Notes under the pieces: generated by a model | What the model was told of the DNA's origin: nothing | Database searches by the model: none | Seen by the model: only the letters and a program-made list of their open reading frames with translations | NCBI GenBank assembly: GCA_017535725.1 | Contig: JAFXTO010000055.1 | Coordinates: 1 to 63,251, forward strand | DNA: 63,251 bases | Source: Bacteroidaceae bacterium | Lineage (GTDB): Bacteria; Bacteroidota; Bacteroidia; Bacteroidales; Bacteroidaceae | Reading direction: 5' to 3' | Part shown: piece by piece, positions 12,328-17,695 of the stretch | Layout: each line of letters opens with the position of its first letter | Numbering within the stretch: position 1 is the first letter of the stretch | Position numbers and translations under genes: made by a program

Positions 12328-12540
12328 AAAATTGAAAGATTGAAAATTGAAAGATTGAAGATTGAAAAATTGAAGATTGAAAAATTGAAGATTGAAAAAT
12401 TGAAGATTGAAAAATGGGGCGGCTGATTTTTTTCGGAATAACGGAATAACGTGATAACGGAATAACGAAGCCGAGAAAGGTAGAAAATTGAAAGATTGAA
12501 ATATTGAAATATTGAAATATTGAAAAATAAAAATATAAAA
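12325..12540. repeat. ATTGAAA tandem repeats with GGCGGC..GCCG composite
   Basis: The 225-bp gap is almost entirely AAATTGAAGATTG words around one composite unit (GGGCGGCTGATTTTTTTCGG, then GGAATAACGTGATAACGG, then CGAAGCCG). No gene. Despite this gap the next gene keeps the same orientation and is probably in the same operon. Confidence 0.75.
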
Positions 12541-12552
12541 TACTATAATATT

Positions 12553-15075
12553 ATGAAGAAGTATTTAAAACTGCTGCTCTGTGCAGCTGTGGGAATCAGC
12601 GCATTCACCGCTTGCGAGGATGTGCCCGAACCTTACAACATCCCAACCGAAAGCAACGGCGGCAACAATGGTGGCAGTACCACGGTCTTAGACTACGTTC
12701 TCAATCAGAACTTCTTGACTTCAAAGGGTGATTTTACCACCAACAGCTCCAGCGGTGACTTGAAGTGGACACACAGCTCCAAGTACGGCGCCATGATCAC
12801 CGGCTATGATGATTTCGATGGCGACGGTAAGAAGGAGAACAAACCAGGCGTGACAACCTTTGTCAGCCCTGAGATAGACCTCACCGACGTCGACAGCGCA
12901 TTTATCGTTATTGATCAGGCTATCAACTGGGCCAAAACGACGCTTGAATCCGACCACAAGCTCTTGATACGCATTGTTGACAGCAACGACCCAGCCACAG
13001 AGCTACCAATGAGCTATGAGGGTCTTGGCAACGACTTTAACTACGTGAAGCAATACATCCAGATACCACAGGAGTTTATGGGCAACAAGGTAAAGATTGG
13101 CTTGAAGCACACGGCTCACGACGACTACTCCTCCACGTGGGAGGTCAAGGAGCTCAGCGTGGCCAAAGGCACAGCGCCCAGCAACGAAAGTCCGATTATT
13201 GAGGACGGTGTGGGCAGCGGCACAGCCGACGACCCCTACGATGTTCCCACCACCATCAAGCTCATCGCCGCAGGTCCTCCGTCAAAGAAGATTTACACCA
13301 AGGGTATCATATCAAAGATTAATGAGATCGACCCGAGCTACGGCAACGCCACTTATTTCATTAGCAACGACGGTACAACCACCGACCAGTTGGAAGTCTA
13401 TCGTGGCTATGGACTTGGAGGTGCTAAGTTCAAGTCAGAGAATGACCTGAAGGTAGGTGACGAAGTGATTGTCTATGGCGTTGTTGTCTATTACAACAAC
13501 AAGACCATGGAGTTCACGCAGGGCAGCGAAATCTACAGCCTCAATGGTGAGACCGCTGGCGGCGGCAGTGGTGATGAGACAGGCATAGAAGTGACTTGTG
13601 CTCAAGCTGCGGAACTGACCAATGCTCTGGCTGATGGCGGTACTTCTGATGAAACTTATACCGTCACAGGTTACATCACCGAGGTCATAGGTTCTCCAAG
13701 TCGTAACCAGCAGACCTTCTGGATGGCCGACACAAAGGACGGCGGTAAAGTGTTCGAGGCTTACTATGCAAACCTTCCCGAGGGTGTCAGCGAGTTCAAA
13801 GTTGGCACGAAAGTGAAGATAACAGGTAAACTCATGAAGTTTGTCAAGGATAGTAAGGTGACTCCCGAAATCAAGAATGCCAACGTCGTAATTCTTGAGG
13901 ATGGTGGTGGAACCCCTGTCACTCCAACAGGCATAGAAGTGACTTGTGCTCAAGCTGCGGAACTGACCAATGCATTGGATGATGGCGGTACATCAGATGA
14001 AACTTATACTGTCACGGGTTACATCACAGAGGTCATTGGCTCTCCAAGTCGTAACCAGCAGACATTCTGGATGGCTGACACGAAGGACGGCGGTAAAGTG
14101 TTCGAGGCATACTATGCAAACCTTCCTGAGAGTGTCAGCGAGTTCAAGGTTGGCAGTAAGGTGAAGATAACGGGTAAACTCATGAAGTACGTCAAGGATG
14201 GTAAGGTGACTCCCGAAATCAAGAATGCGACCGTTGAAATTCTTGAGGACGGTGGTGGTGATACCCCTATTACTCCTACGGGCACTGACGTGACCTGCGC
14301 ACAGGCAGCAGCATTGACCAATGCACTGGCTGATGGTGGAACCTCCGAAGAGACCTATTCTGTCACGGGTTATATCACCGAGGTCGTTAGTAATGTTAGC
14401 CGTAACCAGCAGACCTTCTGGATGGCCGACACCAAGGATGGAGGCAAAGTGTTTGAAGCTTATTGGGCTAATCTGCCTGAAGGCGTCAGCGAGTTCCAGG
14501 TTGGCTCGAAGGTTAAGATAACGGGACAGCTTATGAAGTACGTCAAGGATGGTAATGTGACTCCCGAAATCAAGAACGCCACCGTCGAAATTCTCGAAGC
14601 AGGCGATGATCCCGGTGATAACCCTGGTGACAATCCCGGTGATGACAATAAGATAAGCCCGACCCGCAGTGGCGATCAGGTGGTGACCTTCAGTGGATTC
14701 AGCAGCACCACCTTGCAGATTGTGAATGATTACACTGGCACTTCAGGTGGCACCCAGCTCCGTATCCTCAACCTCGAAGTGACCTACGCCAATGGCACTA
14801 CCGAGCAGGCTGTGATGAGTCAACTTGGACTTAATAACGCCGATGCCCTGAGCACCTATACCTTAGGCGGTCTCACCCTCATATTCGATAAGGGTGAAGG
14901 TGGCACTCAGCCCGCTTACTACACTGGTGGCGGTGGCGCAGCCCGTATGTATGCCAAGAATAGCTTGACCATCACGGCGAATAATGCCATCACAAAGGTG
15001 GTGGTTAACTGCACAGCACCTGATGGCAGTAAGAGCTACAACGGCAATGAGCAGCTTTATGCAGTAGCTGAATAG
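12553..15075 (+). CDS. Large lipoprotein with four OB-fold domains, three in near-identical tandem
   Basis: 840 residues from the ATG at 12553, which gives a lipoprotein signal ending FTAC-E. Residues 20-215 form a beta-sandwich of the choice-of-anchor type (FVSPEIDLTDVDSAFIVIDQ). Residues 220-340 are a first OB-like domain (ADDPYDVPTTIKLI). Then three copies of about 115 residues follow (start EVTCAQAAELTNAL, middle QQTFWMADTKDGGKVFEAY, end KVTPEIKNA), joined by Gly/Pro linkers; the last linker is DDPGDNPGDNPGDDN. They match DUF6359-type OB folds annotated as nucleic-acid-binding. A C-terminal beta-domain ends the protein. It probably sits on the cell surface next to the receptor and captures ligand with high avidity. 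Confidence 0.82.
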   Translation: MKKYLKLLLCAAVGISAFTACEDVPEPYNIPTESNGGNNGGSTTVLDYVLNQNFLTSKGDFTTNSSSGDLKWTHSSKYGAMITGYDDFDGDGKKENKPGVTTFVSPEIDLTDVDSAFIVIDQAINWAKTTLESDHKLLIRIVDSNDPATELPMSYEGLGNDFNYVKQYIQIPQEFMGNKVKIGLKHTAHDDYSSTWEVKELSVAKGTAPSNESPIIEDGVGSGTADDPYDVPTTIKLIAAGPPSKKIYTKGIISKINEIDPSYGNATYFISNDGTTTDQLEVYRGYGLGGAKFKSENDLKVGDEVIVYGVVVYYNNKTMEFTQGSEIYSLNGETAGGGSGDETGIEVTCAQAAELTNALADGGTSDETYTVTGYITEVIGSPSRNQQTFWMADTKDGGKVFEAYYANLPEGVSEFKVGTKVKITGKLMKFVKDSKVTPEIKNANVVILEDGGGTPVTPTGIEVTCAQAAELTNALDDGGTSDETYTVTGYITEVIGSPSRNQQTFWMADTKDGGKVFEAYYANLPESVSEFKVGSKVKITGKLMKYVKDGKVTPEIKNATVEILEDGGGDTPITPTGTDVTCAQAAALTNALADGGTSEETYSVTGYITEVVSNVSRNQQTFWMADTKDGGKVFEAYWANLPEGVSEFQVGSKVKITGQLMKYVKDGNVTPEIKNATVEILEAGDDPGDNPGDNPGDDNKISPTRSGDQVVTFSGFSSTTLQIVNDYTGTSGGTQLRILNLEVTYANGTTEQAVMSQLGLNNADALSTYTLGGLTLIFDKGEGGTQPAYYTGGGGAARMYAKNSLTITANNAITKVVVNCTAPDGSKSYNGNEQLYAVAE

Positions 15076-15096: not shown

Positions 15097-15981
15097 ATGA
15101 AGCGCGAAACACAACGTATCCTCCTGCTCCTGGTCACTCTCCTACCCTTCTTTCTCTGGAGCTGCTCCTCGAATGATGATGAGTTGGATAGTGCGACGGC
15201 CAACATCAACGCCAACCTGAAGGCTGATGGGCCCGAAGCTGCCCGATTAGAGATTCCCAAGCTGAAAGGAGGAGTCGTCAACAGATTCCTCGTCAAGAAA
15301 CTCAGCAGTGGGGAGGTCAACTTCTGCATCGAATGGGACATCGCCAAGAAAGCACAGCGATGGACCGCCTTCCGATGGGACAACACCAACAGCGGCGGCT
15401 ACATCAAGCGCGAGGATAACTTCATTGAGGATACTGATATTCCAGAGGAATACCGAACGACATACGAGAACTACCGGGGGTCGGGCTACACACGAGGACA
15501 TATCTGTGCCAGCGCCGACCGCTGGAACTCCCTCGAAGCCAATCGTCAGACGTTCCTCTACTCGAATATGCAGCCGCAGCTCTACAGTTTCAACGGTGGC
15601 ATCTGGGCGAATATGGAGATGAAAGTGCGCTCGTGGAACACGGCAGACTTCCGCGACACGCTCTATGTGGTTAAAGGAGGTACTATCGACCACAACTCCG
15701 ATATCATCGAGCATACCAGCACCGGACTGCTCGTACCCAAGTATTTCTTCATGGCTATCCTCTGCAAGAACAAGAGCACAGTCAATGAAGGCTACAAGGC
15801 TATTGGTTTCTACCTCGAGCACCGTTCGTTCTATGAAGATGAGAAGACGCTGTCGCCCTATATCGTGAGCATCGATAAACTCGAGAACCTCACGGGCATC
15901 GACTTCTTCTGCAACCTTCCCGACCGCATCGAAAATCAGGTGGAAAATAACGTGACGCCTGCGGCGTGGGGATTTCAGTAG
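15097..15981 (+). CDS. DNA/RNA non-specific endonuclease lipoprotein (NUC1/NucA family)
   Basis: 294 residues, 21 bp after the OB-fold lipoprotein. The signal ends in a lipobox FLWSC-S. The beta-beta-alpha-metal nuclease motif is TRGHICASADRW, with the catalytic histidine in the usual RGH context (the common D before RGH is T here). The metal-binding asparagine lies in LYSNMQPQ, and N-x-E appears in GGIWANMEMKVR. NUC1 enzymes cut single- and double-stranded DNA and RNA to oligonucleotides. As the last gene of the receptor operon it would degrade nucleic acid at the cell envelope. Confidence 0.92.
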   Translation: MKRETQRILLLLVTLLPFFLWSCSSNDDELDSATANINANLKADGPEAARLEIPKLKGGVVNRFLVKKLSSGEVNFCIEWDIAKKAQRWTAFRWDNTNSGGYIKREDNFIEDTDIPEEYRTTYENYRGSGYTRGHICASADRWNSLEANRQTFLYSNMQPQLYSFNGGIWANMEMKVRSWNTADFRDTLYVVKGGTIDHNSDIIEHTSTGLLVPKYFFMAILCKNKSTVNEGYKAIGFYLEHRSFYEDEKTLSPYIVSIDKLENLTGIDFFCNLPDRIENQVENNVTPAAWGFQ

Positions 15982-16031
15982 GGCGAAAAATCTCTTTTTT
16001 AGGGATTCGGATGCAGAAAGTTGAGGAAATG

Positions 16032-16064
16032 TTTGGTCAGGTCGCAGAAAAGCAGTAATTTTGC
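16032..16064 (+). promoter_or_regulatory. Promoter of rpmE
   Basis: TTTG (16032-16035), 20 nt, TAATTTTGC (16056-16064). The transcript should start near 16070, giving a leader of about 80 nt. Confidence 0.8.
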
Positions 16065-16082
16065 GCCGCAAATTCAATGAAC

Positions 16083-16132
16083 GTAGGTACACAAGCCCTA
16101 CAAAGTATTCACCGCCGGTACACAAGCCCGGC
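16083..16132 (+). promoter_or_regulatory. Twin-hairpin leader of rpmE (candidate L31 autoregulatory leader)
   Basis: Two hairpins stand in tandem: GTAGG-TACACAAGC-CCTAC (16083-16101) and GCCGG-TACACAAGC-CCGGC (16114-16132). The 9-nt loops are identical while the stems differ but still pair, as expected for selection on structure plus loop sequence. They sit between the promoter and the start codon of the ribosomal protein gene. A protein, possibly L31 itself, may bind the loops. Confidence 0.7.
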
Positions 16133-16151
16133 AACAATCTACTCCAAAACA

Positions 16152-16403
16152 ATGAAACAAGGTATTCATCCCGAGAACTATCGTCCTGTTGTCTTCAAGG
16201 ACATGAGTAATGGCGACATGTTTCTGAGCCGTTCCACCGCCAAGACCACGGAAACCGTGGAATTCGAAGGCGAGACCTATCCCGTCGTCAAGCTCGAAAT
16301 CTCCAGCAGCTCCCACCCCTTCTACACCGGTAAGAGCAAGCTCGTTGACACCGCTGGTCGCGTCGACAAGTTCATGAGCCGCTACGCTCGCAGCCGCAAG
16401 TAA
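16152..16403 (+). CDS. rpmE: 50S ribosomal protein L31 type B
   Basis: 83 residues from the ATG at 16152 ([19 protein letters not shown]). The protein lacks the zinc-binding CxxC pair of type A L31 and contains the conserved [10 protein letters not shown] and [10 protein letters not shown] segments, which identify the zinc-free type B form. L31 bridges the ribosomal subunits at the central protuberance. The gene is monocistronic, with its own promoter, structured leader and terminator. Confidence 0.96.
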
Positions 16404-16467
16404 ACCTTCGGCACTGCGCAGGAGTACAACAGGAACGTTACCGTTGTCGGTCTGCAAAACTTACAGA

Positions 16468-16505
16468 AGGCTTCTGATGTTCGCATCGGGAGTCTTTTTT
16501 TTTTG
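16468..16505 (+). terminator. Rho-independent terminator of rpmE
   Basis: An 11-bp stem GGCTTCTGATG / CATCGGGAGTC (with G-U pairs) closes a UUCG tetraloop and is followed by about ten T. It lies 65 bp after the rpmE stop. Confidence 0.9.
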
Positions 16506-16585
16506 CATTAAATAAATTAAAAACGTCTTTCAATATAATAAATGCGCGCGCGTTGCGTTATTATATTACAGAAAGAGTTGAAAGC

Positions 16586-17695
16586 ATGGCGCCATACAGC
16601 TTTTATATCTCGCTGGCATTTATGATAGGAGCCGTTTGTACGGCCATCATAATACCGCTGATTATAGCTTTCTGCCGTAAGTTTGGTTTCTACGACCAGC
16701 CTAACGAGCGGAAGGTGCATCATGCTGCTATACCCCGACTGGGCGGTTTGGCCTTTTTGCCCTCGCTGGGTATCAGTTTCCTGACCGTTCTGCTCATCTA
16801 TGCCACCTCCACCGACAGTCTTGGCAGCTTCCATATCTCCGCCGCAGTGATGGTGCTTGGTGCCTGCATCATCTACCTCATCGGTCTGTTGGACGACCTG
16901 CTTGACCTTCATGCCACCACCAAGTTCATCATCATGTTTGTGGCCTCTGCCTTCATCCCCTTATGCAATCTTGTTATTGGGAATCTCCACGGTCTTTTTG
17001 GCATCTATGAACTTCCTCTGTGGGTGGGCTATGGGCTGACGGTGTTGGTTATCATGACCTTGGTCAATGCGCTCAACCTGATTGACGGTATCGATGGTCT
17101 CTCCTCTGGTATCTCCATCATCGCCTTGTGTATCTATACCTATTGTTTTATCGACCTGCGCAACATCGTCTTCTCGGTGGCATCGGCGGGTCTTCTGGGT
17201 GCCGTGGTGATGTTTTTCTTCTACAATGTCTTCGGCCGGGTGGGTCGTTTGAAGATTTTCATGGGCGATGCCGGCAGCCTTATTCTGGGCTACGTCCTAT
17301 CCTACCTGAGCATCAAGTACACGTTGGTTTGTGAGCACGACATCTACACCGAGGTCAATCCCCTCTTGCTTCCCATGTCCATCTTCCTGGTTCCCGTGCT
17401 GGATCTGATACGTGTGGCATTGACCCGACTGATGGCTGGTGAACCGATGTTCAAGGCTGACCGCCGACATATTCACCATGTCCTGATGTCTGCCGGCCTG
17501 TCCATGCACCAGACCCTCTGCATCATCCTTGGTCTGGTCGCCGGTTTCATCGTGCTCAATCTGTGGTTGGAACAGGCTATGGTTCCCCTGACCGTCATCT
17601 TCCTCCTCGACCTGTCGCTATTCATTATCTTCTTCGTGGTCGTTTACAGCGTGGTTCATCGCCGCGAATCCATGACGGAAATGATAACAGAGTGA
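16586..17695 (+). CDS. Undecaprenyl-phosphate sugar-1-phosphate transferase (WecA/MraY family, GT4-type)
   Basis: 369 residues from the ATG at 16586; an earlier TTG at 16553 is less likely. The protein has about ten membrane segments. Family motifs are DQPNERKVHHAAIPRLGG near residue 33, the DDLLDLH aspartates, NALNLIDGIDGLSSG (D-x-D-G loop), GDAGSLILGY, and the late DRRHIHHVLM, the histidine motif of WecA. These enzymes start O-antigen, capsule or teichoic-type glycan synthesis by moving GlcNAc-1-P or a similar sugar to the lipid carrier. H-I-H-H favours WecA-like over MraY. It is followed by repeats and converges with rny. Confidence 0.92.
   Translation: MAPYSFYISLAFMIGAVCTAIIIPLIIAFCRKFGFYDQPNERKVHHAAIPRLGGLAFLPSLGISFLTVLLIYATSTDSLGSFHISAAVMVLGACIIYLIGLLDDLLDLHATTKFIIMFVASAFIPLCNLVIGNLHGLFGIYELPLWVGYGLTVLVIMTLVNALNLIDGIDGLSSGISIIALCIYTYCFIDLRNIVFSVASAGLLGAVVMFFFYNVFGRVGRLKIFMGDAGSLILGYVLSYLSIKYTLVCEHDIYTEVNPLLLPMSIFLVPVLDLIRVALTRLMAGEPMFKADRRHIHHVLMSAGLSMHQTLCIILGLVAGFIVLNLWLEQAMVPLTVIFLLDLSLFIIFFVVVYSVVHRRESMTEMITE

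Follow-up and report, generated by a model that had tools for sequence, protein, structure and literature searches.

The window analysed here, a 63,251-nucleotide stretch of DNA from a Bacteroidaceae bacterium that belongs to a group of uncultured gut bacteria, contains rpmE, the gene for ribosomal protein bL31, flanked by genes of the DNA/RNA non-specific endonuclease family and of glycosyl transferase family 4. The deduced product is an 83-aa type B bL31 without cysteine, which matched NCBIfam NF002462 at 129 bits (cut-off, 86) and has relatives in solved bacterial ribosomes. Of the zinc and zinc-less L31 paralogues on which a Zur-type zinc switch relies, this single gene (type B, cysteine-free) was found in the assembly, which is approximately 76% complete. 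Elsewhere in the window, an 851-aa ORF (12520–15075) has a lipoprotein-like start and three near-identical repeats of approximately 100 residues (TCAAELTNAL..). The features of the rpmE region are as follows.

16032..16035, + strand: TTTG, the -33 element of a Bacteroidota sigma-AB promoter, read from the sequence
16056..16063, + strand: TAATTTTG, the -7 element, read from the sequence
16064..16069, + strand: CGCCGC, the probable transcript start, with columns invariant in the 26 two-loop leaders described below
16083..16101, + strand: hairpin 1 (HP1), GTAGG-TACACAAGC-CCTAC, with a 5-bp stem, identified from sequence and covariation
16106..16112, + strand: UAHUMAY motif (here TATTCAC), single-stranded, in the spacer between HP1 and HP2
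16114..16132, + strand: hairpin 2 (HP2), GCCGG-TACACAAGC-CCGGC, with a 5-bp stem whose outer pairs covary
16152..16403, + strand: rpmE, type B bL31, 83 aa, no cysteine (NCBIfam NF002462, Pfam PF01197)
16465..16498, + strand: hairpin resembling an intrinsic terminator, with a T run after it, 3′ of rpmE

The Bacteroidota promoter consensus is given as TTTG / TAnnTTTG (PMC7366714), and TAnnTTTG was found in all 34 leaders of the twin type. An extra C at CGCCGC was observed in 2 of the 26 two-loop leaders. The initial annotation of this DNA had placed the hairpins between a promoter and the L31 start, and this arrangement was borne out by the Bacteroidota-type promoter upstream and the rpmE ATG at 16152. 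Two terminator-like sites were found in the region 15980–16600, where 0.8 were expected, and none was found in the rpmE leader of the window. Because a terminator-like hairpin directly follows the gene, rpmE is probably transcribed alone, as a one-gene transcript with L31 as the sole ribosomal protein encoded on the mRNA.

HP1 and HP2 are separated by a 12-nt spacer, and HP2 ends 19 nt before the rpmE ATG. A scan of the window for pairs of perfect 5-bp stems that enclose the same 9-nt loop and start 19–60 nt apart detected a single pair, the twin in the rpmE leader, and none of 100 dinucleotide-preserving shuffles yielded any, indicating that the twin hairpins with identical loops described in the initial annotation are real and beyond chance. 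Recurrence of the 9-mer TACACAAGC was a weaker measure, since its two occurrences in the window were reached in 5 of 100 shuffles. The 12-mer GGTACACAAGCC has two copies in the 2.9-Mb assembly, both in the rpmE leader. The folding energy of the leader was unremarkable (z = -1.12; 29 of 200 shuffles folded equally well) and by itself would have missed the twin element; the strong evidence for the element is comparative, not single-sequence. Within the loop, a C–G pair may close an ACAA tetraloop, as it may in the C-GGAA-G of locus L085.

A recognisable rpmE was present in 126 of 139 genomes of the genus, and 125 of the leaders were read; the remaining one, in genome G158, was omitted because its contig starts too near the gene. 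The comparison also covered 80 loci of named records and loci from other families. Simple sequence patterns were used to assign types within a set of 192 leaders that differ in their last 100 nt; 27 loci lacking a recognised L31 start, 12 of them fetched for the 12-mer rather than for rpmE, are not part of this set. Among the 125 genus leaders, 123 could be typed: 50 as T4, 34 as T1 (the twin type), 25 as T2 and 14 as T3, leaving two with no type.

Both loops read TACACAAGC in 26 of the 34 T1 leaders, an invariance that is by choice, because twin leaders were selected by an exact 12-mer; the other eight have a canonical HP2 and another predicted hairpin replacing HP1. The HP2 loop and its closing GG/CC were identical in 34 of 34 leaders, and no variant HP2 loop was found among the covariance-model matches in the 139 genus genomes or among the 125 genus leaders. 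Stem pairing across the two-loop set (n = 26) held in 259 of 260 cells (99.6%), double changes were present in 5 of 10 pairs, and the covariation score was 0.297, compared with 0.097 ± 0.016 for shuffled alignments, none of 500 shuffles being as high. Extending the alignment to all 34 leaders gave 96.5% pairing over 340 cells and a covariation score of 0.302 (shuffled, 0.110). Pairing fell to 15–53% when partners were slid by 1–3 columns, and RNAalifold, unprompted, gave the same 10 pairs. The number of further pair types was not above that of shuffles (6 vs 7.1 with 26 leaders; 12 vs 10.8 with 34).

The outer three pairs of the HP1 stem in the 26 leaders were GCT/AGC (10), GCC/GGC (7), GTA/TAC (4), GCA/TGC (2), GTC/GAC (2) and an imperfect ACC/GGA (1). 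Those of HP2 in the 34 leaders were GCC/GGC (26), GTC/GAC (3), GCA/TGC (2), GCT/AGC (1), ACC/GGT (1) and GCC/GGT (1). Mapped on a weakly resolved L31 gene tree of 32 rows, the stems changed state at least 12 times in HP1 and 6 times in HP2. The distance from the end of HP2 to the AUG was 16–21 nt in every one of the 34 leaders, and the repeat period was 30, 31 and 32 nt in 8, 8 and 10 of the 26 leaders, respectively. The L31 gene trees excluded rpmE stretches shorter than 240 nt; on one of 129 rows, the 32 twin-type rows formed one clade (bootstrap 100, SH-aLRT 93). L31 residues special to this clade were considered as a clue and found not informative: S53 occurs in 31 of 31 clade members and also in 10 of 85 others, and D8 occurs in 25 of 31, the window having E at this position. 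As expected of a ribosomal-protein leader, compensatory change keeps the 5′ leader structure. The proposal in the initial annotation that the RNA structure is selected was thus supported by the compensatory stem changes, and comparison of the sequences shows an RNA structure under selection, restricted to rpmE, with a fixed HP2 loop and a near-fixed distance to the AUG.

A covariance model was built from the 26 two-loop leaders, and its stems covary. Searched in the 139 genus genomes, it gave 35 matches in 34 genomes, all of which (35/35; coordinates compared by eye) adjoin rpmE, which is the consistent association with a ribosomal-protein gene by which such leaders are recognised. Searches of more than 40 genomes ran with stricter filters, under which weak matches are lost. 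Genome G113 had two equally scoring rpmE matches, each with a twin-type leader (L191 and L249, on contigs C22 and C31), which may represent an assembly duplicate or a mixture. The 12-mer GGTACACAAGCC was present in 48 of the 139 genomes, 14 of which carry it elsewhere only; at the 12 sites examined, of 17 counted away from rpmE, no 5-bp hairpin was formed. Across the family, the model matched 5 of 301 sampled genomes, every one of them from this genus, 1 of 30 genera. Conservation of loops and stems upstream of rpmE in related genera, which the initial annotation had set as a test, was therefore not observed, no twin being seen there in this sample.

The other leaders of the genus are likewise conserved and differ in shape. 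In T2, CCAUUACAC precedes a hairpin built on UUACCA; this type was found in 40 distinct leaders inside and outside the genus, including Bacteroides, Phocaeicola, Paraprevotella and Prevotellamassilia records (loci including L110, L140, L146, L149 and L158). The T2 motif was flanked by a stem of at least 5 pairs in 33 of the 40 leaders, compared with 2.4% when the flanks were shuffled; the T2 alignment (A4) holds 33 of the 40 leaders, and no pair counts were taken from it. Within the group, T2 may be the older form of L31 leader. A T2-like CCAUUAC...YUACCA was also observed outside the genus, at loci L059, L063, L066 and L165. T3, GAAUAG...GUGUUACCAAC...CUAUUC, was found in 14 leaders (including L028, L029 and L032), which grouped as a single clade in the L31 gene tree (100/88) and, in another tree, lay near Prevotellamassilia. 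In the alignment of the 14 leaders, 126 of 126 cells paired and 2 of 9 pairs were doubly changed, a number reached by 86 of 500 shuffles; the covariation score was 0.166 vs 0.095 for shuffled alignments.

T4 (loci L014, L023, L024, L037, L038 and 45 more) is an undescribed, covarying leader element, a GYYCC-UUAUC ... UUCC/GGAA ... CGGRRC hairpin whose internal loop is large, asymmetric and conserved (CCUUAUC / CUCGGG), located 0–125 nt before rpmE. The T4 alignment (A3) comprised 42 of the 50 leaders, omitting three with long apical inserts and five near-duplicates. Pairing held in 97.6% of 377 cells, 5 of 9 pairs were doubly changed (reached by 32 of 500 shuffles), and the covariation score was 0.282 vs 0.156 shuffled, with 0 of 500 shuffles as high. 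A search of 251 family genomes with the T4 model gave strong matches in five; each of the five belongs to this genus, and the matches lie at rpmE. Weak matches outside the genus were obtained in 14 of the 251 genomes (E, 7.6e-4 to 0.1), and a weak second match occurred in genome G127; none of these 14 loci, nor the G127 locus, has a recognisable rpmE, and the weak matches were therefore taken as chance. The motif UAHUMAY lies at most 14 nt before the hairpin in 28 of 34 T1 leaders (before HP2) and 39 of 50 T4 leaders, the background being 8 of 955 windows; the sequences are related and these counts are not independent. T1 and T4 did not group together in the gene tree; the AU test gave p = 0.027 for a single clade of L31 genes comprising both and p = 0.064 for T4 alone as one clade, values that neither establish a common descent of the T1 and T4 leaders nor firmly rule it out. 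The untyped leaders (54 of 192) include the shorter ones of Prevotella, Hoylesella and Segatella, and in other genera and families many leaders are short and without visible structure (54/192 untyped; 33/34 in a further set).

Five L31 leaders have been described by Eckert and Weinberg (2020), from Actinobacteria, Coriobacteria, Corynebacteriaceae, Firmicutes and Gammaproteobacteria, and none of those set out in that text is from Bacteroidota (PMC7247131). Like these, the twin element is a covarying 5′ structure at rpmE, confined to one lineage, with rpmE as mostly the sole regulated ribosomal-protein gene; however, each published leader is a single hairpin, with differing bulges, as presented there, whereas the twin comprises two unbulged hairpins with identical 9-nt loops and belongs to another phylum (PMC7247131). 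The main text of a survey of structured RNAs in the human microbiome does not mention L31 or rpmE (PMC8040213), and no Bacteroidota L31 leader was found in searches of openly licensed literature. When the window was compared with Rfam 15, only a tRNA reached the gathering score, positions 15990–16240 gave nothing up to E = 1, and 20 related loci gave no match. To our knowledge, Rfam 15 contains all five published L31 motifs. Considered as an undescribed Bacteroidia form, as initially suggested, the element does appear undescribed in Rfam 15 and the literature searched, but it accounts for only 34 of 125 genus leaders and is not Bacteroidia-wide. The twin leader probably works like an L31 leader, and it belongs to no described L31 motif that we found.

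In Escherichia coli, bL31 is reported to repress rpmE via a hairpin in the 5′ UTR (PMC10931766, PMC9825181). The location before the start region is shared with the twin element, and translational repression, the mode described in E. coli, is proposed here; unlike the twin regular hairpins, the E. coli operator is a lone irregular hairpin interrupted by two internal bulges, and repression there is also exerted by a second L31 that is zinc-less (PMC10931766, PMC9825181), whereas a single type B L31 was found here. A precedent for two sites on one mRNA for one ribosomal protein, as proposed here, is the E. coli rpmI-rplT (bL20) system, although of its sites one is described as a long-range pseudoknot and the other as an irregular hairpin, the two jointly resembling 23S rRNA (PMC10931766), in contrast to the two near-copies of the twin leader. 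No such resemblance was found for the twin hairpins: the loop and other leader motifs were compared with the 16S, 23S and 5S rRNAs on one contig of G180, a related genome of the family and the only one in which 23S was found among eight genomes searched, all other than that of the window, and the best 12-mer had 4 mismatches, compared with 2–4 in shuffled rRNA. Mimicry of rRNA was accordingly set aside at the level of primary sequence in G180.

We propose that the twin leader is an autogenous translational repression operator for bL31, a reading to which we assign a probability of roughly 0.6 and in which the ligand, the repression and the translational step are all inferred. Since L31 is probably the sole ribosomal protein on the transcript, autogenous repression is favoured, and the lack of a terminator-like site in the leader, together with the position of HP2 16–21 nt before the AUG, points to translation. 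When in excess over free ribosomes, bL31 would bind the TACACAAGC hairpins, the main contact most likely being HP2 and the UAHUMAY strand upstream of it. HP1, in which the loop differs in 8 of 34 leaders, looks like a helper to HP2 as the main site; as a looser duplicate of HP2, it would contribute affinity or grading. The bound protein would keep the 30S subunit from the start region, which begins approximately 20 nt downstream. In Flavobacterium, the region from -20 to +20 around the start is reported to tend to be unpaired (PMC6847099). Because HP2 sits at the edge of this region, the hairpins alone should permit initiation, and bound protein would extend into the initiation region. The L31 proteins of the genus, where whole, are 84–100% identical to that of the window. 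The presence of unrelated leader shapes before such near-identical proteins counts against autogenous control, since L31 would then need to recognise several different RNAs. Also against it are the missing resemblance between the loop and the rRNAs of G180, the many short leaders of other genera and families in which no structure was visible, and the number of further pair types, which did not stand out from shuffles.

The same observation, that leader shape differs between close relatives while L31 hardly does, would suit a different ligand, and another RNA-binding protein or a partner RNA might bind the hairpins and tune the translation or decay of rpmE. Tandem copies of short fixed loops are typical of the sites of small dimeric or repeated-domain RNA-binding proteins, which also speaks for such a binder. 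A general regulator, however, would be expected at several genes, and the element was found at no gene other than rpmE among the 35 model matches, nor do the 12 other GGTACACAAGCC sites examined form hairpins. Pairing of the loop to the rRNA of one related genome was tried as a candidate and rejected, because at -7.5 kcal/mol it was weaker than that of 29 of 30 shuffled loops. We therefore consider another binder unlikely. It is less likely still that the hairpins have no ligand and only shield an abundant mRNA from decay at its 5′ end or hold its start region open: they do lie near the presumed 5′ end and finish 16–21 nt before the AUG, at the edge of the -20 to +20 region, but a hairpin that serves stability needs no fixed 9-nt loop, and the HP2 loop is the same in all 34 leaders while its stem varies.

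Two further explanations do without a structured RNA. The inverted repeats are 30–32 bp, or approximately three helical turns, apart, as might suit a transcription-factor operator in the DNA just 3′ of the start site; such an operator would be expected to have fixed arms and a free centre, whereas here the arms vary in a complementary manner around a fixed, asymmetric centre, which makes this explanation very improbable. The repeats might instead encode an N-terminal extension of L31 from an in-frame ATG at 16077, since the ORF 16077–16403 is open. We give this almost no credence, because L31 family profiles start at the ATG at 16152 and the repeat period of 30, 31 or 32 nt, with which the reading frame is not kept, contradicts a coding role.

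We suggest tentatively, at slightly less than even odds, that the genus swapped the operator of a near-unchanged L31 several times, through a series of twin TACACAAGC hairpins, UUACCA hairpins, GAAUAG/GUUACCAAC elements and CCCUUAUC internal-loop hairpins, two of which are linked by the UAHUMAY strand, and that the twin arose as a two-site operator by copying of the loop. If true, a single protein would have been served by a rapidly turning-over series of RNAs that look unrelated. Ribosomes of the class are reported to fail to recognise Shine-Dalgarno sequences (PMC9976891), so that repression may differ from the textbook case. Within one genus, an L31 that hardly varies is thus preceded by four conserved types of leader, a natural experiment on the rebuilding of an RNA operator under a constant protein and on what L31 actually recognises.
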